A stretch of 64,000 bases of DNA. Origin: Paraburkholderia ginsengiterrae (lineage in GTDB: Bacteria; Pseudomonadota; Gammaproteobacteria; Burkholderiales; Burkholderiaceae). Where the stretch lies: NCBI RefSeq assembly GCF_001645125.1, contig NZ_LXKA01000209.1, positions 1 to 64,000 of the forward strand, written 5' to 3'. The position numbers and the translations under genes are program-made. A model generated the notes under the pieces. The model was given only the letters and a program-made list of their open reading frames with translations, searched no databases and was not told the DNA's origin. Positions 1,426 to 14,663 of the stretch are shown here, one piece after another (positions within the stretch are counted from its first letter, which is position 1; each line of letters opens with the position of its first letter).

Positions 1426-1496
1426 CTACAGTTGACTCACCAAATCCGTATCATAGGGCCGCTGCCGCATGGACACTATTCCACAGAGAAATGAAG
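1426..1496 (+). promoter_or_regulatory. LysR promoter/5'-end block, copy 1 of 3
   Basis: This 71-bp block precedes and overlaps the start of the intact LysR gene. Blocks of 72 bp matching it lie at 10272-10343 and 12412-12483; all begin CTACA, end AATGAAG and contain the core GACACTATTCC or GAGACTATTCC. Here the block contains the LysR start codon at 1469, so part of the conservation is coding (residues MDTIPQRNE) and part is upstream non-coding DNA. It probably represents the regulator promoter and its operator, ancestrally shared with a divergent catabolic operon. Confidence 0.5.
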
Positions 1497-2407
1497 GCGA
1501 TATCGAACTCGATCTCCACCACTTGCAAGTATTAGACGTACTGCTGACCGAACACAGTCTGACCAAAGCCGCGCGCGTGCTAAATCTCTCTCAGCCCGCC
1601 TTGAGCAAGACGCTGGCTCGACTACGACTCTATTTTGGCGACCCGCTTTTTGTGCGCGTAGCGCTGCGCATGGAGCCCACACCGAAGGCGCTCGAACTCG
1701 CAGAATCCGTGAGGGCGATATTAAAAAGAATTCGCGCGCTGCGTTCGGAGCACGCGTCATTCGTTCCAAAGACGTCAACGCGTAAATTCAGCTTCTTTCT
1801 TGTTGATGCGGGTGTGGTAAAAATCTTCCCAGCGCTGTTGAACTACCTGGCCGCTGAAGCGCCGGGCGTATGCGTACAGTCGATTCCGTGCGACGCGCAA
1901 CACCTCGATCTGTGGCTTGAATCGGGCCTCGTCGACCTGGCAATTGGCTCCTTCCCCTCGCTGACAATGGGTATTCGGCGTCTACCGCTGTGGACCGAGA
2001 CCTACGTAAGCGTTACGCGCAAAGACCATCCGCGCATCGGCACGCATCCGAGCAAAGCACAGTTTGTCGCGGAGAAGCACGCGCTCGTGTCCGCACTAGG
2101 TACCGGGCACGAACATTTGTCAATTGAGCGGCTCATCGAGTCCGAAGTGCCTCGTAGGAACATAGTGTGCCGCGTCCCCGTCTTTACTTCGGCCGCGCTG
2201 ATCGCTAAACACTCCGACGTGATCGCCACGATGCCAAAGACTCTTGCCGTTGCGATGAGTCACGACCTCGACCTGCAAGTGGTTGAGCCGCCAATCGCAT
2301 TGCCCAAACTCCAAATCGCTCAGTACTGGCACGATCGATGTCACCTCGAACCCGGCAACCAATGGCTTCGAAATGTGTTTCGCACGCTGTTTTCGACGCC
2401 CGGGTAA
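1469..2407 (+). CDS. LysR-family transcriptional regulator of the phenol cluster
   Basis: A 312-residue LysR-type regulator. Residues about 16-75 form the winged helix-turn-helix (LHHLQVLDVLLTEHSLTKAARV, then LSQPALSKTLARLR), followed by the linker helix and a C-terminal effector-binding domain. The ATG at 1469 is the only good in-frame start; AGGG lies 9 bases upstream. The gene faces the eight-gene phenol operon and ends 96 bp from its last gene with a hairpin between them. HadR/TcpR-type LysR proteins activate such operons on binding a phenol or its product, so this is the likely activator. The effector cannot be read from sequence. Decayed paralogues are present at 12.46 kb and as a 5' stub at 10.3 kb. 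Confidence 0.88.
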   Translation: MDTIPQRNEGDIELDLHHLQVLDVLLTEHSLTKAARVLNLSQPALSKTLARLRLYFGDPLFVRVALRMEPTPKALELAESVRAILKRIRALRSEHASFVPKTSTRKFSFFLVDAGVVKIFPALLNYLAAEAPGVCVQSIPCDAQHLDLWLESGLVDLAIGSFPSLTMGIRRLPLWTETYVSVTRKDHPRIGTHPSKAQFVAEKHALVSALGTGHEHLSIERLIESEVPRRNIVCRVPVFTSAALIAKHSDVIATMPKTLAVAMSHDLDLQVVEPPIALPKLQIAQYWHDRCHLEPGNQWLRNVFRTLFSTPG

Positions 2408-2503: not shown

Positions 2504-3334
2504 TTAGCCCACGGGGTTTAGGACGAAATCGTAAGTCAACGTGTAGCCACCGTCAGGCTGCTTGATCCAGTCGGCTACCAACGTTTGTCGTACGCCAAAA
2601 ACAGCATCGGAATCCAGATATCGGTCGCCGTTACGAAATACGTGCGTGACCAACGTCTCGTAATTTTTCGCCTTGATCATGAAATGAAGGTGGGCGGGGC
2701 GCCAAGGGTGGCGCTCGGTAGCACGCAGCAAATCGCCCACTGGGCCATCGACCGGAATCGGGTATGCGACAGCGACAACCGTGCGAAATTCAAAACTACC
2801 GTCGTCTTGGGACGTGAGTACGCCTCTAGCTTGATGGGTCTCGAGATCCGGATACTGAACGTCATAGTTCCCGGCAGCGTCGGCCTGCCAAACCTCCAAC
2901 ACTGCCCCTGCAATCGGTGCGCCGTTGCGATCCTTCACGGTGCCTCGTACGAGGCAAGGTTCGCCAACCGCGCCATTGGCGATGTCGGCACCGTTCTCAT
3001 ACACGGGCGCGCCTTCTACGTGGAACGGCCCAAAAACAGTCGATTCCGTGCAACCTTCCGGCTTTTCGTTGTTCATCGCAACGGTCAACATCGACAACCC
3101 GAGGACGTCACTCAACAAAATGAATTCCTGCCGCTTGTCGTCACATTTTTGCCCCGTCGCGGTTAGAAAGGAAATCCCCGCCAGCAACTCTTTCTCTGTT
3201 AGTTTGACATCCCGCGCGAAGTTATGCAGATGCGTGATGAGGCTGGTGAGTACGAATTTCAAGCGAGGATCCGGGGTGCCGGATAAGAGATTGACCACTG
3301 CTTGCGTGACAGTCTGTTCATTGAGGTTGCGCAT
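2504..3334 (-). CDS. hydroxyquinol 1,2-dioxygenase
   Basis: A 276-residue intradiol ring-cleavage enzyme that opens hydroxyquinol (1,2,4-trihydroxybenzene) to maleylacetate. The N-terminal helical dimerisation domain (FVLTSLITHLHNFARDVKL) is followed by the beta-sandwich catalytic domain. The Fe(III) ligands are visible as the Tyr of GNYDVQ, the Tyr of AVAYPIP and the two His of RPAHLHF. The start at 3334 is preferred over longer in-frame possibilities because TTGGAG lies just upstream and because it begins with the family-typical MRNLNEQT. It is the last gene of the operon, 112 bp after maleylacetate reductase. It corresponds to HadC/TcpC; cluster context favours hydroxyquinol over catechol as substrate. 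Confidence 0.92.
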   Translation of the reverse strand: MRNLNEQTVTQAVVNLLSGTPDPRLKFVLTSLITHLHNFARDVKLTEKELLAGISFLTATGQKCDDKRQEFILLSDVLGLSMLTVAMNNEKPEGCTESTVFGPFHVEGAPVYENGADIANGAVGEPCLVRGTVKDRNGAPIAGAVLEVWQADAAGNYDVQYPDLETHQARGVLTSQDDGSFEFRTVVAVAYPIPVDGPVGDLLRATERHPWRPAHLHFMIKAKNYETLVTHVFRNGDRYLDSDAVFGVRQTLVADWIKQPDGGYTLTYDFVLNPVG

Positions 3335-3446
3335 GTTTGTCTCCAATTGTTTGGTGTGTTGGTGAACCACCGCCAACCCGTACGTTGATAGCGGCCATCG
3401 AGCGAGGCGAAGAGATTCATAACGCCGTCTGCCGCGGATCGTGCAA

Positions 3447-4517
3447 TCAGATCTGCGGTCGCGCACCCTCGTATGCGTCTTGTAGCAACTGTCTTATTGC
3501 CACTCTCTCTAGTGGCCGAGGATTGGGGTATTGATTTTCCAGCGCAATCGCGCACGCCTTGTCGAGTTCTGACGCTTTCATTCCGATATCCTTCAGTGCC
3601 AACGGTGCGCCGTTCATCTTCGCCAGATCGAAAATGGCTTGCGGTGCGCTAGTGCCGTTTAGCGCACGCGCGATGCGCTTCATCGCACGCGAGGCGGCCG
3701 TCGCGTTGTAGGCGAGTGCATGCGGCAAAACGATAGTGTGGGTTTCTGCATGCGGCAGGTTGAAGCTACCGCCTAACGTATGGCAAAGTTTATGATGCAG
3801 AGACATACCCACGCTCCCTAGCACCGATCCACACAGCCAGGCGCCGTAGAGCGCATCCGCACGCGCCCGCCGAACGTGCGCATCTTCGGCGTCGAGCGTC
3901 AGTAGGGGCAGCGCTCGTCCGATGGCAGCGATGCCCTCGGCCGCCATCAGATCTGTGATCGGGTTGGCATCCATGGCGTAAAGACCTTCCGCCGCATGAG
4001 CAATCGCATTGATCCCGCTGCTAACGCTCAACGATACTGGCAGCGAGTATGTAAGTTCGGGATCGTAGATCACTGTCTTTGGCATGACACGGATATCGCG
4101 ACCGGTCTTTTTTAGCCCCGCTTCGGTTATACCGTAGATCGGCGTCATTTCAGAACCAGCATAGGTAGTCGGAATAGCAAGGATCGGAAGGTCCGACTCC
4201 AGTGCTATCGCTTTTCCGAGTCCTATCGTCGAACCACCGCCGATTGCTATAGCGCAGTCGGCGTCAAGACGACGCGCTAGCTCGCGTGCTTCGCGCGCAA
4301 CCTCGACCGGTACATGCATAGCCGCCCTGTCGAACACGCCGGCGACACGAGACCCGAGAATCCCTGCTATCCGTGCTGCATCTCGACGTTGATCAGGTGT
4401 CGCGAGTATGAGTGCATGACGCGCGCCAAGCAGGTCGACTTCCGCTTCGATCCGGCCCAGAGCACCGATTCCAAATACAACTCGCTGCGGATGGCTCGTA
4501 AAAATAAATTCGTTCAT
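3447..4517 (-). CDS. maleylacetate reductase
   Basis: A 356-residue iron-type alcohol dehydrogenase-family protein that reduces maleylacetate to 3-oxoadipate with NAD(P)H. It opens with FIFTSHPQRVVFGIGAL, typical of this subfamily. The nucleotide-binding motif AIGGGSTIGLGKAIAL and the segment HKLCHTLGGSFNLPHAETH, which carries the conserved His residues, are present. It starts 16 bp after the FAD synthetase gene, so the two are probably cotranscribed. The product sits directly after hydroxyquinol cleavage in the pathway (HadD/TcpD equivalent). Confidence 0.92.
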   Translation of the reverse strand: MNEFIFTSHPQRVVFGIGALGRIEAEVDLLGARHALILATPDQRRDAARIAGILGSRVAGVFDRAAMHVPVEVAREARELARRLDADCAIAIGGGSTIGLGKAIALESDLPILAIPTTYAGSEMTPIYGITEAGLKKTGRDIRVMPKTVIYDPELTYSLPVSLSVSSGINAIAHAAEGLYAMDANPITDLMAAEGIAAIGRALPLLTLDAEDAHVRRARADALYGAWLCGSVLGSVGMSLHHKLCHTLGGSFNLPHAETHTIVLPHALAYNATAASRAMKRIARALNGTSAPQAIFDLAKMNGAPLALKDIGMKASELDKACAIALENQYPNPRPLERVAIRQLLQDAYEGARPQI

Positions 4518-4533: not shown

Positions 4534-5421
4534 TCACGTCAAGGCCATCGTGCTGAATGCGAAGCGGCTTGTCGCCGATCTCGCCCGATCATGGAATCGG
4601 ACGGTCATCGCGTCACCGAGGGCAATTTGCGTGTCCTTCTCAACAAGCAAACGCACCGTGCGCGCGCCAATCTGTGAATGTTGCTCTCGAACCTGCAAGA
4701 TAGCGTCGATCCAGGGCGCCGCAACATGCTGCTTTTTTACCGTTCCGGCATAATCCCCCATCGGCGGTGAACACAAATCGCCGGGTACCAGGAGGTCGAT
4801 CACGCGGCAAGCAGAATCACTCGGGCCGAACACCGTCCCCGACAGCTCGTGCGGGCGATCTAGCATTGCATTTGCACCACCAATATCGCCTTGCTGGACT
4901 AGCCGCCGTGTTTCGCTTGACGAACAATACGCACCGTTCTCAATGTACGTATTCAGCCGCAGCGGCACGGGACGTACGTCAAACCCGAGGCAACCACCAA
5001 GATTGCCCAAATACGTGATATTCCCTTGTCGACCACTGCCACAGGCGAAATTCTCGCCGACGATCAGTGAACGCATGCCCAGCTTGTCAACCAAAGTCCC
5101 CCGCACAAAATCATCTGTCGATTCCCCGCTTCGCTGCCGATCAAATTTCAGAACGAGGCAGTAGTCGACATGTCCGGTGGACGCTAACAAATCCATACGA
5201 CCTTCAAGGGTCGACAAGAGCGGTGGGCAGGATTCGGGACGCAACGTGGCAAGCGGGTGAGGATCAAATGTGACCAAAACAGTAGGAAGCTGCAAGACCC
5301 GTCCTTGATCTCGCAGCGTCCGCAGAACGCGCCTGTGCCCACGGTGAACGCCATCGAACATCCCGATCGACACGGCCGACCCGGACAAATGGAATTCACT
5401 TGGATTGTGGATGACTATCAT
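4534..5421 (-). CDS. RibF-like FAD synthetase with degenerate riboflavin-kinase domain
   Basis: A 295-residue RibF-family protein. The N-terminal FMN adenylyltransferase domain is well preserved: SIGMFDGVHRGHRRVL (nucleotidyltransferase HxGH box), TFDPHPLATL, LIVGENFACGSGRQGN and the SSSETRRL segment. The C-terminal riboflavin-kinase region is divergent: the expected GFPTAN motif reads DLCSPPMGDYAG and the acidic residue near the end of the domain is not evident. I infer that it makes FAD from FMN but may not phosphorylate riboflavin. It lies 32 bp after the nitroreductase gene and 16 bp before maleylacetate reductase, inside a pathway that runs on FADH2, which suggests a dedicated cofactor supply. 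A housekeeping ribF should exist elsewhere in the genome. Confidence 0.82.
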   Translation of the reverse strand: MIVIHNPSEFHLSGSAVSIGMFDGVHRGHRRVLRTLRDQGRVLQLPTVLVTFDPHPLATLRPESCPPLLSTLEGRMDLLASTGHVDYCLVLKFDRQRSGESTDDFVRGTLVDKLGMRSLIVGENFACGSGRQGNITYLGNLGGCLGFDVRPVPLRLNTYIENGAYCSSSETRRLVQQGDIGGANAMLDRPHELSGTVFGPSDSACRVIDLLVPGDLCSPPMGDYAGTVKKQHVAAPWIDAILQVREQHSQIGARTVRLLVEKDTQIALGDAMTVRFHDRARSATSRFAFSTMALT

Positions 5422-5453: not shown

Positions 5454-6044
5454 TCAAATTACCTTGCAGACTTCGTCAAAAGAGAGCCGTGGGCTGCGAG
5501 GAAACAACCTGGAAGGGTCCCCGCGACCAATGCCGCAAATGAAGTTCGACTTGATCGATGTGCCAGCGAACACTGTGGCGTCAACCTTTGCATTGTCGAA
5601 ACCGGACATCGGGCCGCAGTCCAGACCAACCGCCCGTGCCGCCGCGATCAGATATCCACCCTGCAAGGTCCCATTGCGAAATGCAGTTGTTTCAGCGAAC
5701 CCGATCTTCGCTTCGCCTTCGAACCAGGCCTTGACAGTGGGGTTATGCGGAAAGAGCCTCGGCAGATCCTCGTAGAAACGCGTCTCGTAGCCGACAACCG
5801 CCAGCACTGGCGCCGTCATAGTCTTAACTACATTCCCCGGACTGAGAGCGTCCTTCAGTTCTTCCTTGCCGGCTTCACTGCGCACGAAAACGATCCGAGC
5901 CGGCGAACAATTCAGTGAAGTGGGACCCCACTTCATCAACTCGTACACTTGTTTCAACTGCTCGTCCGAGACCGGCTCATCAAGCCACCCGTTCTGGCTT
6001 CGACCCTTGCGAAACACACGGTCCAAAAAATTCTCATCAACCAT
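5454..6044 (-). CDS. hadB: nitroreductase-family quinone reductase (HadB/TcpB-like)
   Basis: A 196-residue FMN-dependent nitroreductase-fold protein of the RutE/HadB subgroup. Recognisable segments are [20 protein letters not shown] near the N-terminus, [15 protein letters not shown], and [23 protein letters not shown] near the C-terminus. In chlorophenol clusters this protein reduces the quinone released by the monooxygenase to the hydroquinone form. It follows the monooxygenase by 97 bp and precedes the FAD synthetase. A decayed copy of its C-terminal half is present at 11512-11850. Malonic-semialdehyde reductase is an alternative for the wider family, but the context argues against it. Confidence 0.85.
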
Positions 6045-6141: not shown

Positions 6142-7695
6142 TCAGATGGACATAGTGCCGCTGAGTGCCAGCGATTCTTGATGCCGTGCCGAGTCAAGCG
6201 CTTTGGCGTAGTCGGCCGTCACTTTGTAATCGCTGTTCTCGTCGATCTCAGACTCGATTCCACAAACCCGGCGAGCGAGTCTTGCATACGGGCCCGAACC
6301 AGAAAATTCCGCGCGTTGCATGGTCAGCGTGCGAATCGCTTGCAGCGGCGTGCCGTTGAAGTTTTCGAAAACGAACAGGCGGCTACCCCAGTCCGTCAGG
6401 AACAGGTCACGGATCACCCGGCCGATCTGAACGCGGTCATGCGGTTTGCCGACGGGTCCGCTGTTCAAGCGTTCAAACCACGGATTGAGCGTCGCATCAT
6501 TCCATTGATCTTCGCTGGCGAAGATAAGAGCACTACGCCCGGAAAGGTCGACCAGCTCGTAGATCATCTGCGAGAAGTTCTCGAGATAGAGCGCGCGGCC
6601 AAAGTCGTAGATCAGAATATTCGGCTTGTAGTGTCCGCCGGGCGTGTGAAAGCCCAATTCCTCCGCCGCGATAACGTGGGCTAGCATCGCCTGGTGAAAA
6701 CCAATCAGTTTCGCGACCCGGGTCATGACAGCCGGAATCTTGTTGGTTCCAATATGCTCGGTGATCAGCACGGCCAGTCCGGCCATCAGCTCAGCGCGCA
6801 CCATCTGGCGAACCAGCGCATGGTAATGCAGCCAGTCGAAGACTCGTTGCGGGTAAAGCTTGGCATGTTCAGGATTGCCGATATGGAAGACATGCGACCA
6901 CGGAATGAAGACATTTTCGAAAAGCGTCATGCCGTCGAGTTCATCGCCTTGGGAGGCCAGCGGGTGTTCGATTGGATCATCCTTCACCACGCCTTCACGA
7001 CAGACGATCGTCACCCCTTTGGCATTGACGGGAGTCGCTGCGAAAATAACCTGCTCGCCGGGAATGCCAGGACGGAAAAATACGCCGATATGGATCCAAT
7101 CGGCAAAAGCGACGCCAGTGCCGATCGCCTTGATACCGTTGACAACGATTCCCTTCTCGTTCTTTTCGACTATACGGAGACCCGGCGAGCGTGCCTGTGC
7201 TTCCGGGTTGGACCGGTCCATTTGCGGGTCGACAAATTGCGGTGCGCAGTTAAAGTCGTTGTCCTTCGCAAAGTTGACAAAATTAACGATATTCTTCGCT
7301 TTGATGTGACCTTCCGCACCGATAGATTGGGTTTCCCATGGCGTCGGATCGTCCAGATAAGTCTGCAGTACGTAGTTGTTCACATCTGGACTACGGGGAA
7401 AGGATGCACCAGCCATTTCGCGCATCACGGTCTCGTGGTACTTGCGCTTACGCCGGAGTTGGTCCTTATTGTGATGACCGAACCATTGCATTGAACGGCG
7501 TTTGCCATTCTCGTCGATAAAGGTCACGACGTCTTGCAAATCGGGGCGATGATGCAAGTCATAGAAATCTGCGTGACGCTGAGCATAGTCACGCGTTTTC
7601 GGGTGCGTCGCGATGTTGTCGATCTTCTCGTTTCCCACCCAGACTTGACGCCCGTCATTCAGGGATTCGAGGTATTGACGACCGGTTCGGATCAT
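6142..7695 (-). CDS. hadA: FADH2-dependent phenol monooxygenase (HadA/TcpA-like)
   Basis: A 517-residue member of the HpaB-type two-component flavin monooxygenases. It matches the HadA (Ralstonia) and TcpA (Cupriavidus) chlorophenol monooxygenases in length and along its whole sequence, for example MIRTGRQYLESLNDGRQVW, VNGIKAIGTGVAFADWIH and FNGTPLQAIRTLTMQRAEF. These enzymes hydroxylate halo- or nitrophenols para to the hydroxyl with loss of halide or nitrite, using FADH2 made by a partner reductase. A reading frame continues upstream to 7869, but the Met at 7695 is preferred: it has GAAGGA before it, gives the family length and clears the reductase gene by 37 bp. The exact phenol cannot be deduced. 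Confidence 0.93.
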   Translation of the reverse strand: MIRTGRQYLESLNDGRQVWVGNEKIDNIATHPKTRDYAQRHADFYDLHHRPDLQDVVTFIDENGKRRSMQWFGHHNKDQLRRKRKYHETVMREMAGASFPRSPDVNNYVLQTYLDDPTPWETQSIGAEGHIKAKNIVNFVNFAKDNDFNCAPQFVDPQMDRSNPEAQARSPGLRIVEKNEKGIVVNGIKAIGTGVAFADWIHIGVFFRPGIPGEQVIFAATPVNAKGVTIVCREGVVKDDPIEHPLASQGDELDGMTLFENVFIPWSHVFHIGNPEHAKLYPQRVFDWLHYHALVRQMVRAELMAGLAVLITEHIGTNKIPAVMTRVAKLIGFHQAMLAHVIAAEELGFHTPGGHYKPNILIYDFGRALYLENFSQMIYELVDLSGRSALIFASEDQWNDATLNPWFERLNSGPVGKPHDRVQIGRVIRDLFLTDWGSRLFVFENFNGTPLQAIRTLTMQRAEFSGSGPYARLARRVCGIESEIDENSDYKVTADYAKALDSARHQESLALSGTMSI

Positions 7696-7732: not shown

Positions 7733-8314
7733 TTAAAGTGTTGCGGGCCGGGTTGTTGCGTAAGCGCGCTGATAGTAAGCGAGGGGGTGGCGCTCTTCTG
7801 CTTTGGTGGTCGCGATAACGCGCGCGAAAATGAGGCTGTGCGTCCCAACCTCAATAGCATCTGCGACACGACAGTCGAGCGTCATCATTGCTTCCTTGCA
7901 GTAGGGTGCGCCGCTTGCCAGGATTCCCCACTGACTCCTCTCAAACCGTTCTGGCATTGACAGCCCACCAACGCCCGCGAAGAGCTGGGACAGTTCACTC
8001 TGATCTGCACTCAGCCAGTTCACAGTGAGTATCCCGTTCGCTTTGATCACGCCGTTAGCGAAGCTGTTGCGGTTGACGCAAACCAGCACAGTCGGAGGCG
8101 TGTCACACACTGAGCAGACTGCAGAGCAGGTAACGCCAGCTCTGCCACCCGGGCCGTCAGTGGCGAGGATAGTCACGGGAGTGATTGCTTTGGAAAGCGC
8201 CTCCCTCATCTCAGTCGCGCTCACTTCGGCAGATACTGTCTCTGGCAGATTTCTCGGCGGCGTGGCAATTGCGAAATCGGCAGCTAATTCTTGTCTTTTC
8301 TGCGTGTTGGGCAT
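7733..8314 (-). CDS. hadX: flavin reductase partner of the monooxygenase (HadX-like)
   Basis: A 193-residue flavin reductase of the FMN-binding split-barrel family. The core is visible in EMREALSKAITPVTILATDG, RAGVTCSAVCSVCDTPPTVLVCVN, ILTVNWLS and TLDCRVADAIEVGTHSLIFARV. It supplies reduced flavin to the monooxygenase directly downstream (37 bp). GGAG stands 7 nt before the ATG. The order reductase, monooxygenase, nitroreductase is that of hadXAB and tcpXAB. The last 15 or so residues are variable. A decayed paralogue lies at 11.86-12.29 kb. Confidence 0.9.
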   Translation of the reverse strand: MPNTQKRQELAADFAIATPPRNLPETVSAEVSATEMREALSKAITPVTILATDGPGGRAGVTCSAVCSVCDTPPTVLVCVNRNSFANGVIKANGILTVNWLSADQSELSQLFAGVGGLSMPERFERSQWGILASGAPYCKEAMMTLDCRVADAIEVGTHSLIFARVIATTKAEERHPLAYYQRAYATTRPATL

Positions 8315-8367: not shown

Positions 8368-9240
8368 TTACAAGGTCGTCAGGAACATCTGGTCGGCGGT
8401 TCCCGCAGGGACGCCGAGTTCCGCGGCGACAGCAGCGACCCCCGCTTTGGCAACTTTGAGGTCCACGCGACCATCGGAAGTGAAATGCGGACGGATGTAC
8501 CGCTCGTAGTGTTGCTCCGCTTCTGCGTTGGTCAGTCGGTTCAACATCGATGCGATGTGTTCGACGGCGAGGCTGGGCTGTTCGGCGATCGTTTTGAGCG
8601 ACCGCTTGTAGGCCCGCACCATAGCTTGCAGGGCTGGATCGTCGAGCGAGATGCGCGAAGGGTCCACGGCGAGTCCCACAGTGGGGATCTGGAAGTGGTC
8701 GCCCACCCAGGACAGCACAGAAAATCCCTCTTCGCGGGCGACCTGTTCAGCCGATAACGTGCTGCCCACGTAAGCCGCATCAATCGAGCCGTCGCGAAGG
8801 CGACGCAGGTCCATCTGGTAGTCGCCCGGGATTCGATGCACGCATTCCACGTCGCGATCGGGATCCAGCCCGTGCTTGCGCAGCACGATCCGCGCAAAAA
8901 CCCCGGGGGCGGTGCGGGCCCCGTGAACCGCCAGTCGGCGGCCCCGAAGATCCTCCATGGACTTCACGCCGTTAGCGCCGACGAACCAAAAAAGCGGTCG
9001 GTGCGTGTTGACGCTTAGGGCCGTCCATTCGATGCCGTCAGTCATTCGCGACAATAGGGCCCGGCCAAGACCGATGGTTGCGCCCGCGCGCACACGTTCA
9101 GTCTTCCATACGGCTCCGTCGCGGAGGGCGACGTGAACACCTTCTTCCTCGAAATATCCCTCTTGATCGGCTACATGCGCGATCAGCTCCTCGTGGATAC
9201 CGGCCCCGACGTAAGTCAGGTCAATCGAGAGCTTTGGCAA
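8368..9240 (-). CDS. substrate-binding-fold (SsuA/NMT1-like) protein without signal peptide
   Basis: A 290-residue protein with the periplasmic-binding-protein type II fold of the SsuA/THI5/NMT1 group: IDLTYVGAGIHEELIAHV, DQEGYFEEEGV, SMEDLRGRRLAVHG, GSIDAAYVG and PTVGLAVDPSRI. It begins MPKLSIDL with no hydrophobic signal sequence, and the codon before its TTG start is a stop, so no longer N-terminus is possible; AGAGGTGTTAA gives a good ribosome site. No permease or ATPase gene is nearby. It may be a cytoplasmic ligand-binding protein or an enzyme on this fold, as 4,5-dihydroxyphthalate decarboxylase is. The gene is 84 bp after the SDR gene and 53 bp before the flavin reductase, so it appears to belong to the phenol operon. 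Confidence 0.75.
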   Translation of the reverse strand: MPKLSIDLTYVGAGIHEELIAHVADQEGYFEEEGVHVALRDGAVWKTERVRAGATIGLGRALLSRMTDGIEWTALSVNTHRPLFWFVGANGVKSMEDLRGRRLAVHGARTAPGVFARIVLRKHGLDPDRDVECVHRIPGDYQMDLRRLRDGSIDAAYVGSTLSAEQVAREEGFSVLSWVGDHFQIPTVGLAVDPSRISLDDPALQAMVRAYKRSLKTIAEQPSLAVEHIASMLNRLTNAEAEQHYERYIRPHFTSDGRVDLKVAKAGVAAVAAELGVPAGTADQMFLTTL

Positions 9241-9324: not shown

Positions 9325-10065
9325 TCACTCCATTCCAAAGCCGCCGCTTACGGGGATGTAGTGACCGGTCGTGAAACCCGACGCGTCACCTGCCAGATAC
9401 GCCACTGTATTGGCCACTTCGTCAGGACGGGCAAGCCGTCCCATCGGTATGGACGCAGCGATCGCCTTCAGCCGTTCGGCGGAGATGAGCCCAGCCGAAG
9501 TAGCGCCCTCCACCGTGGTCGGCGCAACGAGGTTGGCGGTGATGCCGTGGGGCGCCAGTTCCAAAGCGACGTATCGCACGAACTGATCCAGGGCCGCCTT
9601 GGCGGTGCCCAGCGTAATCATCCCGTCACGCGGACGACGCGACAGCAGGGTACTCAGGTAGATCAGCCGCCCGTGACCACGAGAAATCATTCCTGGCACA
9701 ACGGCCTTCGTTGCCAGGAAGGCGGCGCGCAGTTCAGAGTCCACCTTGCCGCCGAGTTGCTCCCAGCTCAAGTTGCCGAAGGAGGTGACGTCATAGGGCG
9801 TCAACGCGTTGTGCACGAGAACGTCGACTCCACCCCATTGCTGACTGATTTCGTCCACCATGGCGGCGACATCGTTTGGCTCAGTGACGTCGCCTTTGAT
9901 CACCATAGCTTCTCCACTGGCCGCGACGATCGTCGCGGCCACGTCTTCGGCCTGGGGTGCACTGGAACGATGGTTGACGACTACCTTGTATCCCTGTTTG
10001 GCCAAAGCGATCGCAATGGCCGCACCAATGCCCCGGCTGGCTCCAGTGATCAGCGCGACTGCCAT
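9325..10065 (-). CDS. short-chain dehydrogenase/reductase-family protein lacking the catalytic Tyr
   Basis: A 246-residue FabG-like SDR. The cofactor-binding motif TGASRGIG (residues 7-14) is intact, and the C-terminal part (VSGGFGME) is typical. Ser138 and Lys156 of the active site are present, but the YxxxK Tyr position holds Leu152 (MITLGTAKAALDQF; codon CTG, no ambiguity). The protein could be a nucleotide-binding accessory or an SDR using another acid/base residue. GGAGGTGTCCTC precedes the ATG at 10065. It is the first gene of the phenol operon and follows the block at 10272-10343. Its role in the pathway is unknown. Confidence 0.82.
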   Translation of the reverse strand: MAVALITGASRGIGAAIAIALAKQGYKVVVNHRSSAPQAEDVAATIVAASGEAMVIKGDVTEPNDVAAMVDEISQQWGGVDVLVHNALTPYDVTSFGNLSWEQLGGKVDSELRAAFLATKAVVPGMISRGHGRLIYLSTLLSRRPRDGMITLGTAKAALDQFVRYVALELAPHGITANLVAPTTVEGATSAGLISAERLKAIAASIPMGRLARPDEVANTVAYLAGDASGFTTGHYIPVSGGFGME

Positions 10066-11511: not shown

Positions 11512-11850
11512 CTAAGCGAGCGTGCACGCTTCCTCTGACGAGAGGCGCGGATTGCGAGCAAAAGACCTTTCGGCATTTCCATAGCTAGGACCGCACAGGA
11601 AGTTCGACTTCAGCGGGGTTCCGCTAAAGATCGCCTCGTCAAGCGCCGCAATATTGAAGGTCGACATCGGTCCGCAATCCCGGCCGATTACGCGTGCAGC
11701 GGCAAGTGGATATCCGCCTTTAAGTGTGCCGTTCCGGAATGATGTGGAGCGTGCAAAGTCCTGCTTCTCTTCGCGTTCGAACCACGCGTTGACGCCGATG
11801 TTGTGTGGAAAATGCCTCCGCAGCCGCTCATCGGTAGCGATGCTCTCCCG
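11512..11850 (-). pseudogene. C-terminal remnant of a HadB-like nitroreductase
   Basis: Translating the minus strand here gives segments such as RNGTLKGGYPLAAARVIGR, DCGPMSTFNIAALDEAIFSG and KSNFLCG. They are clearly homologous to the intact nitroreductase at 5454-6044 ([46 protein letters not shown]). The frame ends at a TAG at 11512. The N-terminal half is missing, and the preceding sequence passes directly into flavin-reductase remains, so the monooxygenase that should lie between has been deleted. Confidence 0.75.
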
Positions 11851-11859
11851 CCAGCTACT

Positions 11860-12290
11860 CTGGCTGCGCGAGCGTTGAAATATGGCGTGCCGGTCGGAGA
11901 ATACTGCCAGCAGTTGCTCGCGACGCGCTCGCTCATCGACACTTGACCGGTGCCCGAAAAATGCCTGGAGATGTTCACCCGCCCGGCAGGGAGGCGGTTG
12001 ACTGACGGTACGGCACTTACCTCGATGACGCTGTTCACGGCGCTTACGCGGTTCACGGCGCTTACGCGGTTCACGCAGAAAAGGATCGGCGGCGGAGTAT
12101 CGCAGACCGTACTGATGGCCGAGTATGTGACGCCCGCGCGCCCGCTCGGTCCGTCGGTCTCCGCGATGGTCGCAGCGATCGCGGCCCGTGACAGCGCCTC
12201 GCGGAACCGAGTCGGCGAGATGCCGGTCAACGGTAGACCGACAGAAAATAACGCGTATTCACGCTCTAGTTCACGGGGTCGGCTTTGCCG
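11860..12290 (-). pseudogene. decayed HadX-like flavin reductase
   Basis: The minus strand encodes RFREALSRAAIAATIAETDG, RAGVTYSAISTVCDTPPPIL and GQVSMSERV, matching the intact reductase at 7733-8314 (EMREALSKAITPVTILATDG, RAGVTCSAVCSVCDTPPTVL, GGLSMPERF). The central part is replaced by an in-frame repeat (RVSAVN twice), and the C-terminal end runs into the nitroreductase remnant. It belongs to a decayed duplicate of the phenol cluster whose regulator remnant lies divergently at 12.46 kb. Confidence 0.75.
12033..12075. repeat. 18-bp tandem repeat inside the flavin-reductase pseudogene
   Basis: The unit GTTCACGGCGCTTACGCG occurs twice exactly (12033-12050 and 12051-12068), followed by the partial unit GTTCACG. 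Its length is a multiple of three, so it adds codons without shifting the frame. It is most simply a slippage expansion within a non-functional gene. Confidence 0.85.
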
Positions 12291-12411
12291 CTGTCGTTGC
12301 GCGTATGACACTCCACTTCTCCTGATGTCGAGTCGGCCTGCGGACTTCCCTGCAATGGAGCAGATTCGCGGTCTGTAGGGACACTGCATACTGCGAACTG
12401 ATTCTCTTCAA

Positions 12412-12483
12412 CTACACTAGGCCCGCCAAATTAATCCCTCTACGGACGCGGCGGCATAGACACTATTCCACAGCGTAATGAAG
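12412..12483 (+). promoter_or_regulatory. LysR promoter/5'-end block, copy 3 of 3
   Basis: A 72-bp block with CTACA at the start, GACACTATTCCACAG in the core and AATGAAG at the end, as at 1426-1496 and 10272-10343. It lies between divergent remains of the flavin reductase (minus) and LysR (plus), which shows the ancestral layout of regulator, shared promoter and catabolic genes. The LysR start codon position is ATA instead of ATG. Confidence 0.5.
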
Positions 12484-12690
12484 CCAGCCCGCACCTGCAT
12501 TAGCTTCACGTGTTCGATATCCTCATGACCAGGCGCAGTATCACGAAAGCGGCACGCGTGCTGAATCTCACGCATCTCGCGCTCAGCAAGCCACTAACGT
12601 GGATGCGGATGGACTTTCGGCGATCATCTGTTCATCAGCGCCATCCGGCGATCCACAGAGACTCTCTCAACATGGAGCCACATCGCTGGA
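12459..12690 (+). pseudogene. decayed LysR paralogue, helix-turn-helix part
   Basis: The frame reads DTIPQRNE, a TAG stop soon after, then VFDILMTRRSITKAARVLNL and LALSKPL, matching the helix-turn-helix of the intact regulator at 1469 (VLDVLLTEHSLTKAARVLNL, ALSKTLA). It lacks a start codon, has an early stop and loses homology after about 75 codons (near MEPH). It is the regulator of the decayed second copy of the phenol cluster. Confidence 0.75.
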
Positions 12691-12771
12691 CACCCAAGAC
12701 TTCAGGTATGGTGACGAGAACATCGTGGCGACCATCGATGCGCCGATGCCGTTCTCCTCCGGAACTAAACC

Positions 12772-13158: not shown

Positions 13159-14663
13159 TGGGGGAGTGTTTGTTCAGCGTCGAACCGCTTCGGGTGATCT
13201 GAAGTGCGGATACCGGTTTCGAAAGCAGCTTTCCAATCTTCCATCAAGCAGCTCGACGCGAGTCTGTAGCAGATAGTGAGCTCCCTTCATGGACCAACGC
13301 ATTTGTTGCCGCTTTGAGAGACGACGATTGATCAAGTGATTCATGACGGACTCTGCTGACGCCGACGACACCCGGCGTCCTTCCATTCTGGCGCGTTGAT
13401 AGTCGACAAGATCCTTTCTGTTGTGCTCGAGGAATGTGAGCAGACGGACGGCTGCCCGATACGCTGTACCTGAGGCAAGTTGATAGAAGAAAGTCAGTTC
13501 TTCTGCGGCGATTGCCAAAGAGGCGGCCAACGTGCGGAGCATCTCGATTGCCGTCTCCCCCCGACCACGCCATAGCGCGTCGCGCACCCTGACAAGAAGG
13601 CGCTCTGATCGCCGCATAATTTCAGGTCGCCTGGAGAAATAGTTGTAAGCGCAAACGGCCGATCGTATGGCGCGCAACTTCATGCTGATGTGAAACCAGT
13701 CGAGAATCCTGGGTGAGACGCGGGGAGCTATCGATGTCACCAGTGAGCGCATTCCCCGAGCGCCATCCGAGATCACGTCAATTAGGGTTGATGGAACCCA
13801 ACCACATTGATCGAGTGCGCCCGCCACGAGAACCCGGGCCAAGCTCGGGCGCTGCAAAGCCGACACAAACCTTCGCGCCATTTGTCCGTCGCGCTCAACC
13901 CTACCGGCGATGACTTCGAACTTGCGACTTTCCTGGAACTGGTTGGCGCTCAATACCGTTCCATCGATCGCGATTCGCAGGTGGCTGGCGCGGTTGCGTT
14001 TTCGTCCGCCAGCGAGCCATCCAATCCGGAACTGTTCGTTCTCGACGTACTCTCCGCACTGAACGGTATCTTTGCGGACTGTTGTGTGTGATAGCTTCGA
14101 CAGTCCCGCCATGTCGGCGACGGAACGTGCAGCCTCACGATAGGAAACGGAGGCACCGTGTTTTGCGCAAAGGTATGATACCTCCGGGGTGCGTCGCGTC
14201 GGCAGAAGAGGCTCAATGGAACACTCTGAAAACCGCAGGCTGATAGAGTACCCGTTGTCATCGTACGGCTCAGGCGTGCACGAGCAGGATACGACTCGCG
14301 GCACTTTAACCTGTACTCTGCCAAGTGCCGTCGAAAACGTGCGGGAACGCCAATCCTTGATGCGCCGATAGCCGCCGCATTCCCGGCAGTTCCGACGAAG
14401 CTTATCGTAGGCGTTAATCTGATCTTGTGTCACAAGCTGTTGCAACGCTGCGAGGAGTTGACGACCTTCGGCGAGGGACAACCCGAAATCGGCAGGTGTA
14501 GCGCCATTTACGGGGCGCCTAAAAGAGCAAATCGAGACCGGCTCGTCCGTTCCGGGTCGTTGCAGAAGAATCTTCCATCGCAGTTCCATGGCGGTCTCCC
14601 CAGTACGTCAACCGTTGCAGTTTAGACCAGACGTGCCTCCCCCAGATTTTGTCCACTCCCCCA
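13159..14663 (-). mobile_element. ISKra4-family insertion sequence, apparently complete
   Basis: The element carries one long transposase gene and is bounded by the short inverted ends TGGGGGAGTG (13159-13168) and CACTCCCCCA (14654-14663); a second CTCCCCCAGA lies just inside the right end. It is about 1.5 kb long. The left flank is an integrase fragment and the right flank a truncated acetyltransferase gene, and no target duplication is obvious, so flanking deletions probably followed insertion. The exact ends are inferred from the short repeats only. Confidence 0.6.
13174..14589 (-). CDS. ISKra4-family transposase
   Basis: A 471-residue transposase. The N-terminal Cys-rich zinc-ribbon-like segment (RRNCRECGGYRRIKDWRSRT, then VVSCSCTP) and the RNase-H-like DDE core (LRIAIDGTVLS, STLIDVISDGARGMRSLV, ILDWFHISMKLRAI) are those of ISKra4-group enzymes. 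The C-terminal region SAESVMNHLINRRLSKRQQMRW is also typical of the family. GGGGAGACCGCC precedes the ATG. The frame is uninterrupted, so the protein may be functional. It is the only gene of the element. Confidence 0.85.
   Translation of the reverse strand: MELRWKILLQRPGTDEPVSICSFRRPVNGATPADFGLSLAEGRQLLAALQQLVTQDQINAYDKLRRNCRECGGYRRIKDWRSRTFSTALGRVQVKVPRVVSCSCTPEPYDDNGYSISLRFSECSIEPLLPTRRTPEVSYLCAKHGASVSYREAARSVADMAGLSKLSHTTVRKDTVQCGEYVENEQFRIGWLAGGRKRNRASHLRIAIDGTVLSANQFQESRKFEVIAGRVERDGQMARRFVSALQRPSLARVLVAGALDQCGWVPSTLIDVISDGARGMRSLVTSIAPRVSPRILDWFHISMKLRAIRSAVCAYNYFSRRPEIMRRSERLLVRVRDALWRGRGETAIEMLRTLAASLAIAAEELTFFYQLASGTAYRAAVRLLTFLEHNRKDLVDYQRARMEGRRVSSASAESVMNHLINRRLSKRQQMRWSMKGAHYLLQTRVELLDGRLESCFRNRYPHFRSPEAVRR

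Follow-up and report, generated by a model that had tools for sequence, protein, structure and literature searches.

For two-component monooxygenases acting on chlorophenols and nitrophenols, reduced flavin adenine dinucleotide (FADH2) is a diffusible co-substrate that is consumed in the reaction; the published accounts, in the parts considered here, stop at the flavin reductase. A gene of Paraburkholderia ginsengiterrae raises the question whether such a pathway can also carry its own source of FAD. It lies in a stretch of 64,000 nucleotides (positions 1 to 64,000 of contig NZ_LXKA01000209.1, hereafter the window) within a gene cluster of the TcpA/HadA type, occupies 4534..5421 on the minus strand, from the ATG at 5421 to the stop at 4534, and encodes a kinase-less FAD synthetase (FADS) of 295 amino acids (aa), resembling FADS-type II. 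The initial annotation had the coordinates right; on the plus strand, the frame is interrupted by stops. The gene product is probably a flavin mononucleotide (FMN) adenylyltransferase derived from a bifunctional RibF, which lost the riboflavin kinase activity and was retained as the FAD supply of a hydroxyquinol-type phenol pathway.

A FAD synthetase lacking the kinase site

The window FADS is predicted to fold into an FMN-adenylyltransferase (FMNAT) domain (residues ~12-190) followed by a degenerate riboflavin-kinase-like beta-barrel (~191-280). Its FMNAT motifs FDGVHRGH and SSSETRR, described as intact in the initial annotation, are present together with FDPHP and GENF, and the residues H28, H31, N125, S164 and R168 (CaFADS numbering) are kept in all 21 members, including the window protein, of the clade of TcpA-type FADSs defined below. 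The Pfam model FAD_syn matches the window FADS with 134.2 bits (cut-off 27), whereas no Pfam match to the Flavokinase domain is found at E<=0.01. NCBIfam RibF models reach it between residues 4 and 246, all under their cut-offs (best model 167.9 bits vs 295; TIGR00083 108.5 vs 184.35).

The earlier claim that the kinase motif GFPTAN is lost is borne out, as the window FADS has no GxPTxN string and Arg occupies the column of the catalytic Glu of the kinase when aligned with RibF proteins. This incomplete site is common to the clade, with the kinase Thr, Asn and Glu residues being absent from their columns in 21/21 members as compared to their presence in 93, 93 and 94 of 94 comparison RibFs, respectively; two of the 94 comparison loci yielded no usable open reading frame (ORF). 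The GxPTxN string itself occurs in one of the 21 clade members (L040) and in 89 of the 94 comparison RibFs, the five without it (L043, L067, L084, L101 and L110) having been kept in the comparison group. Among these, the Chloroflexi RibF of L101 (7938-8726, 262 aa) lies beside a truB-like ORF, which is a housekeeping position.

Homology alone would allow the window gene to be the housekeeping RibF of this organism. However, the genome contains two places matching FAD_syn, the window gene and a complete RibF of 331 aa with the motif GFPTLN, located on another contig (C222) beside a purN-like ORF, and two RibF-like places exist in all eight FADS-positive genomes of the first 300-genome set. Thus, the separate housekeeping ribF sought after the initial annotation exists, and a housekeeping function of the window gene was rejected as practically excluded.

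By sequence, the window protein fits FADS-type II, as it keeps the FMNAT module, lacks PTAN, has a shorter C-terminal module and coexists with a type-I copy in the same genome, and FMNAT activity without kinase activity is hence predicted. Proteins of this type, sharing these four properties, have been described (PMC2972280), but the passages concerned treat them as a class defined by sequence, with no pathway attached, the type-II rows name no Burkholderiales, and the clade studied here constitutes a separate lineage with Cys127. Arthrobacter chlorophenolicus A6 is listed in Table 1 of that work as one of eight genomes with FADS-type I and type II, with no pathway mentioned in that part; its plasmid FADS (L116) sits in a chlorophenol-type gene region. 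The plant chloroplast proteins AtRibF1 and AtRibF2, as covered in the same source, are likewise RibF-like enzymes of FAD synthesis with a lost kinase motif and undetected riboflavin kinase activity, but they are nuclear-encoded, have their own LNxPP motif and belong to no pathway cluster (PMC2972280). Similarly, LmFADSII, a second FAD synthetase of Listeria monocytogenes, is a RibF-type protein whose tabulated kinetics cover FMNAT but not riboflavin kinase (Table 1, PMC5548840). It represents a different lineage. We know of no catabolic cluster or partner monooxygenase for LmFADSII. As compared to CaFADS and other bifunctional RibF proteins (structures 2x0k and 4uze; 3op1 of S. pneumoniae), the clade lacks the kinase Thr, Asn and Glu, has a shortened C-terminal module and carries Cys in place of F128.

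Co-occurrence with two-component monooxygenases and probable repeated recruitment

In the family set of 399 genomes (G000-G398), the monooxygenase was found in 17 at E<=1e-200 and the FADS clade in 16 at E<=1e-36 (8/300, 6/80 and 2/19), all within the monooxygenase-positive 17. The co-occurrence gives a Fisher p of 1.2e-27, a value that overstates independence because 13 of the 17 genomes belong to one genus, g3 (Cupriavidus). When had/tcp-like clusters were searched for the same gene, the FADS was located inside the cluster in 16 of the 17 (16 regions retrieved and the window). Its position within the cluster varies: it lies between the nitroreductase and maleylacetate reductase genes in the window and in P. 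panacisoli, between the monooxygenase and maleylacetate reductase genes in three Variovorax loci and V. paradoxus, after lysR in Cupriavidus, Caballeronia, G034 and G375, and upstream of a MetA-like gene and lysR in Variovorax RA8. Retention of the FADS despite such shuffling of gene order argues for a functional link. In an order-level sample of 399 genomes, the monooxygenase was detected at E<=1e-90 in the window genome only and the FADS at E<=1e-36 in two, the window genome and G684, whose contig matches Polaromonas C04; G684 has no close TcpA, and the same stretch encodes another HpaB-type monooxygenase and a flavin reductase.

Similar associations are found in other lineages. Sixteen kinase-less FADS loci were hand-picked from the hit lists in a non-exhaustive manner, 15 outside the clade and Polaromonas C04, which falls in the clade by the tree; hits left out include H8, H88, H91, H94, H96, H98 and H123, and H5, H9, H33 and H39 were classed as housekeeping by context. 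A two-component-type monooxygenase of the HpaB, luciferase-like or acyl-CoA-dehydrogenase fold is encoded in 14 of the 16 stretches (detected in L177 as two overlapping pieces) and a flavin reductase in 12, as compared to 0/78 comparison RibF loci, a contrast that is uncontrolled for the richness of catabolic plasmids in monooxygenases and only partly matched in length, since the accessory stretches span 14.6-19.0 kb and the comparison loci, which mostly surround RibF genes of other phyla, have a mean length of 13.6 kb. The neighbourhood queries were drawn partly from the surveyed loci themselves, and the 78 include H15, a Rhodococcus qingshengii plasmid gene annotated as bifunctional. For the two loci without a monooxygenase in the stretch, the genes lie farther off: in P. 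chlorophenolicus A6, an HpaB monooxygenase is encoded 12.4 kb and a flavin reductase 17.7 kb upstream of the FADS, and in Streptomyces NBC_01450, a TcpA-like enzyme (56% identical) lies at 9.7 kb and a flavin reductase at 15.5 kb. Outside the survey counts, plasmid pR1CP1 of R. opacus 1CP carries a 64%-identical monooxygenase, a dioxygenase, FADS, an iron-containing alcohol dehydrogenase (Fe-ADH) and a flavin reductase within ~16 kb. In a set of 13 plasmid records encoding a TcpA-like enzyme, a FADS lies nearby in nine (at 8.5-12.4 kb in A6, NBC_01450 and NBC_01562) and none is near in two, with Streptomyces NBC_01340 and NBC_00271 left out of the FADS reading.

The 15 other accessory FADSs all lack the GxPTxN string, and three of them (L116, L117 and L180) place a Glu in the column of the catalytic Glu, where the alignment is uncertain. 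Luciferase-associated members are of 202-234 aa by their assigned starts, with little beyond the FMNAT part. Several of these genes, as in Thioclava, Caballeronia SBC2, Aminobacter MSH1 and Variovorax SRS16, are presently labelled "hypothetical protein", which calls for a correction of annotation. As separate observations, L176 and L177 (Terrarubrum and Neorhizobium galegae) have the FADS in a common, catabolic-looking alphaproteobacterial set with amidase genes, an aminopeptidase, an ABC transporter and an HpaB enzyme. At L171 (4114-7469, genome G287 of genus g3), a bifunctional RibF paralogue with GFPSIN directly follows a flavin reductase and an acyl-CoA-dehydrogenase-fold protein, and possibly represents a cluster-linked FAD synthetase that kept the kinase.

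In a midpoint-rooted FMNAT-domain tree (86 rows, 176 columns, with 45 of 95 comparison rows thinned out beforehand), the 21 TcpA-type FADSs form one clade (99/99) apart from Burkholderiales RibF, the alphaproteobacterial accessory FADSs form another (100/99), and the FADS pair of A6 and YC-RL1 groups with an Arthrobacter RibF (100/99). The luciferase-type set is less certain (95/78), its position near Burkholderiales RibF is weak (93/33), and the placement of the long branches L166 and L168 is unsure. At least four changes of the comparison-group label, be they gains or losses, are required by the starred branches. A single accessory FADS family spread everywhere is not favoured, as the TcpA clade, the alphaproteobacterial clade and the Arthrobacter pair are separate on starred branches. 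Several separate recruitments of kinase-less FADS are the simplest reading of this tree, short of proof, which suggests that a private cofactor supply was added to such pathways more than once among bacteria.

The FMNAT half is constrained and the barrel less so. For the N-domain, the ratio of nonsynonymous to synonymous substitutions (dN/dS) lies at 0.10-0.24 for six pairs of the TcpA clade and for A6/YC-RL1, and for the C-domain at 0.16-0.56 for eight pairs, with the window/P. panacisoli pair included, the pairs being non-independent because L113 and L005 were reused. The isolated N-terminal domain of CaFADS gave no reaction (PMC2573891), which could explain why the clade kept the barrel, yet the luciferase-type members are shorter.

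The proposed FAD-supply role weighed against alternatives

If the gene serves as FAD supply, the housekeeping RibF would provide FMN and basal FAD, and the extra FADS, expressed with the operon, would convert FMN and ATP to FAD and pyrophosphate, hence enlarging the FAD pool to the presumed benefit of the cell. The flavin reductase would reduce this FAD, and the resulting FADH2 would diffuse to the monooxygenase as its co-substrate. Lacking a kinase site, the FADS would act on FMN only, with no draw on riboflavin. A dependence on FAD is consistent with the monooxygenase of the window (6142..7695, minus strand), which contains Q158 and R161 of the loop selective for FADH-, residues proposed in the relevant part of PMC8342789 to allow HadA-type enzymes to select FADH-; HadA is stated to bind and use FAD only (PMC6165268, in the passage concerned). 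The pathway-specific cofactor supply proposed in the initial annotation is thus backed by the co-occurrence and by similar genes near other two-component monooxygenases, while its FMN-to-FAD activity stays a prediction, with the unusual Cys127 in the flavin pocket. If true, FAD can be limiting, and cofactor supply would be part of the pathway and acquired with it. The gene could then be used directly in building heterologous strains for degradation and biocatalysis, and FADS-type II proteins would gain a functional context.

Several observations weigh against this role. Besides the non-independence of the Cupriavidus genomes, one family genome (G123) has a monooxygenase gene with no more than the initial codons of the FADS left, and the plasmids of Rhodococcus JS3073 and Rhizobium 11515TR carry a TcpA-like cluster (monooxygenase ~44% identical) with no FADS within ~14.5 kb in 31-kb stretches; the FADS is therefore not indispensable. 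In eight HpaB partner enzymes, R161 is present in all, whereas Q158 is found in four, with Lys in two and Pro in two, and one accessory-FADS lineage pairs with a luciferase-like enzyme, so that FAD demand may not extend to every association. Luciferase-like enzymes are often FMNH2-using. L040 carries a literal GMPTAN, outside the aligned columns and without the Glu. This motif lies at residues ~199-204, where near relatives have unrelated residues, and is either a chance match or a relic of the kinase motif. The remaining contrary points concern the rate of evolution and the flavin pocket.

In the pair of the window and P. panacisoli, dN/dS is 0.48/0.32, the N-domain value of 0.48 indicating weaker constraint than in the other pairs and contrasting with 0.05 and 0.00 for the two halves of the monooxygenase. 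Together with the degenerate kinase half, the truncation in G123 and a frameshift in G391 (an 86%-complete draft), this could point to a hitchhiking duplicate without function that is decaying. Such a fate is, however, highly improbable in view of the low N-domain ratios in the seven other pairs, the persistence of the FADS through several changes of gene order and similar recruitments outside the clade. In G123 (L140, downstream of lysR, from ~12150), the FADS frame holds the first ~14 codons followed by unrelated sequence, and the stretch retrieved showed no homologue of maleylacetate reductase or MetA either, as if a rearrangement had severed the cluster.

The pocket change was overlooked in the initial annotation. 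All 21 clade members have Cys127 at the position of CaFADS F128 in the isoalloxazine pocket, and 13 of the 21 have Arg (Arg97) at the hydrophobic L98 position, whereas Phe is kept at position 128 in all 15 other accessory FADSs tabulated. An aromatic residue (Phe or Tyr) at this position is thus lacking in the clade, a property outside the published definition of type II. The CaFADS variants F128A and F128K, according to the results taken from PMC7279473, have no FMNAT activity, Cys not being among the substitutions tried. With this conserved Cys127, the adenylyltransferase site is in part unusual, and the residue represents a testable change in substrate use.

Such a substitution and the retention of a degenerate barrel could fit a pseudoenzyme of little or no catalytic activity, with flavin binding serving a sensory or regulatory function, a notion to which the adjacency of lysR and FADS in the Cupriavidus, Caballeronia, G034 and G375 clusters would add. 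This is improbable, as the tabulated FMNAT catalytic residues are kept in the whole clade, the FADS is not beside lysR in the window, L033 and five Variovorax clusters, and the luciferase-associated members retain little outside the FMNAT part. Alternatively, the clade might adenylylate FMNH2 received from the flavin reductase, delivering FADH2 directly instead of using oxidized FMN. SpnFADS adenylylates reduced FMN only, and early work suggested specificity of BsFADS for reduced flavins (PMC5548840, in the section concerned). These precedents, Cys127 and Arg97 at pocket positions and a flavin reductase encoded in the same cluster speak for a reduced-flavin relay, yet it is unlikely, with Phe kept in the other accessory FADSs. 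Reduced flavin is moreover short-lived in aerobic cells. It is somewhat more doubtful still that both things hold together, namely that two-component FAD monooxygenase clusters repeatedly and independently acquired kinase-less FADSs and that the TcpA/HadA clade with Cys127 and often Arg97 forms an FMNH2-to-FADH2 relay of flavin reductase, FADS and monooxygenase.

The surrounding cluster and its described counterparts

The gene run of the window, all on the minus strand, is headed by a gene for an NMT1/SsuA-like substrate-binding protein (8368..9240), followed by those for a flavin reductase (PF01613; 7733..8314, TcpX/HadX-like by context), the TcpA/HadA-type two-component FADH2-dependent monooxygenase, a nitroreductase-family (quinone) reductase (5454..6044, named HadB/TcpB-like by gene context), the FADS, a maleylacetate reductase of the Fe-ADH family (3447..4517, function by gene context and annotated homologues) and an intradiol dioxygenase, probably of the hydroxyquinol type (2504..3466, with the true start probably at ~3334). 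A LysR-type regulator gene (1469..2407, plus strand) is convergent with the operon, and homologues of this regulator are encoded next to the FADS in Cupriavidus, Caballeronia, G034 and G375. The FADS gene is separated by 32 bp from the upstream nitroreductase gene and by 16 bp from the downstream maleylacetate reductase gene, in agreement with the spacing given earlier. The monooxygenase has 517 aa from the ATG at 7695, the GTG at 7869 of the ORF list being too long, and matches 2,4,6-trichlorophenol 4-monooxygenase (4g5e, 1078 bits) and chlorophenol monooxygenase (6jhm, 1073.6 bits) end to end and 3hwc over residues 2-510 (780 bits). At the family level, the cluster thus has the flavin reductase, nitroreductase-family reductase, intradiol dioxygenase, Fe-ADH maleylacetate reductase and LysR of the TcpA/HadA type.

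The same set, including the monooxygenase, is shared with tcpRXABCYD of C. necator JMP134 and had of R. pickettii DTP0602, but no FAD synthetase gene is named for these in the relevant part of the review PMC3975901, in line with the initial view that such a module is not usually described for had/tcp clusters. The function of tcpY is called not clear in that part (PMC3975901); by gene order, as seen in L113 and L119, tcpY probably matches the MetA-like gene. Identity of the FADS with tcpY is unlikely, because in Cupriavidus the MetA-like gene lies between the dioxygenase and maleylacetate reductase genes. A partial literature search, with the primary tcp papers outside its coverage, found no published description of a FAD synthetase linked to such a catabolic cluster. 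Candidate prior descriptions were set aside, as the passages found in PMC4221894 mention RibF and chlorophenols in unrelated contexts, PMC12542839 matched via 8-hydroxyquinoline, and the mention in PMC5481743 is a reference title. The protein type is known as FADS-type II, while none of the papers covered by this search links it to FADH2-consuming catabolic clusters or describes its apparent repeated origin.

The NMT1/SsuA-like gene and a short-chain dehydrogenase/reductase gene (9325-10065) have 77-80% identical homologues beside the FADS-bearing clusters L151 and L152, which makes the association wider than the tcp gene set of the review. Further along the window, remnants of a second had/tcp-like cluster occupy 11518-12755, comprising a nitroreductase fragment (57% over 104 aa), a broken flavin reductase (43% over 137 aa) and an N-terminal LysR fragment (44% over 102 aa). 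Beyond these, a 471-aa ORF at 13174-14589 has zero Pfam matches and is transposase-like by eye.
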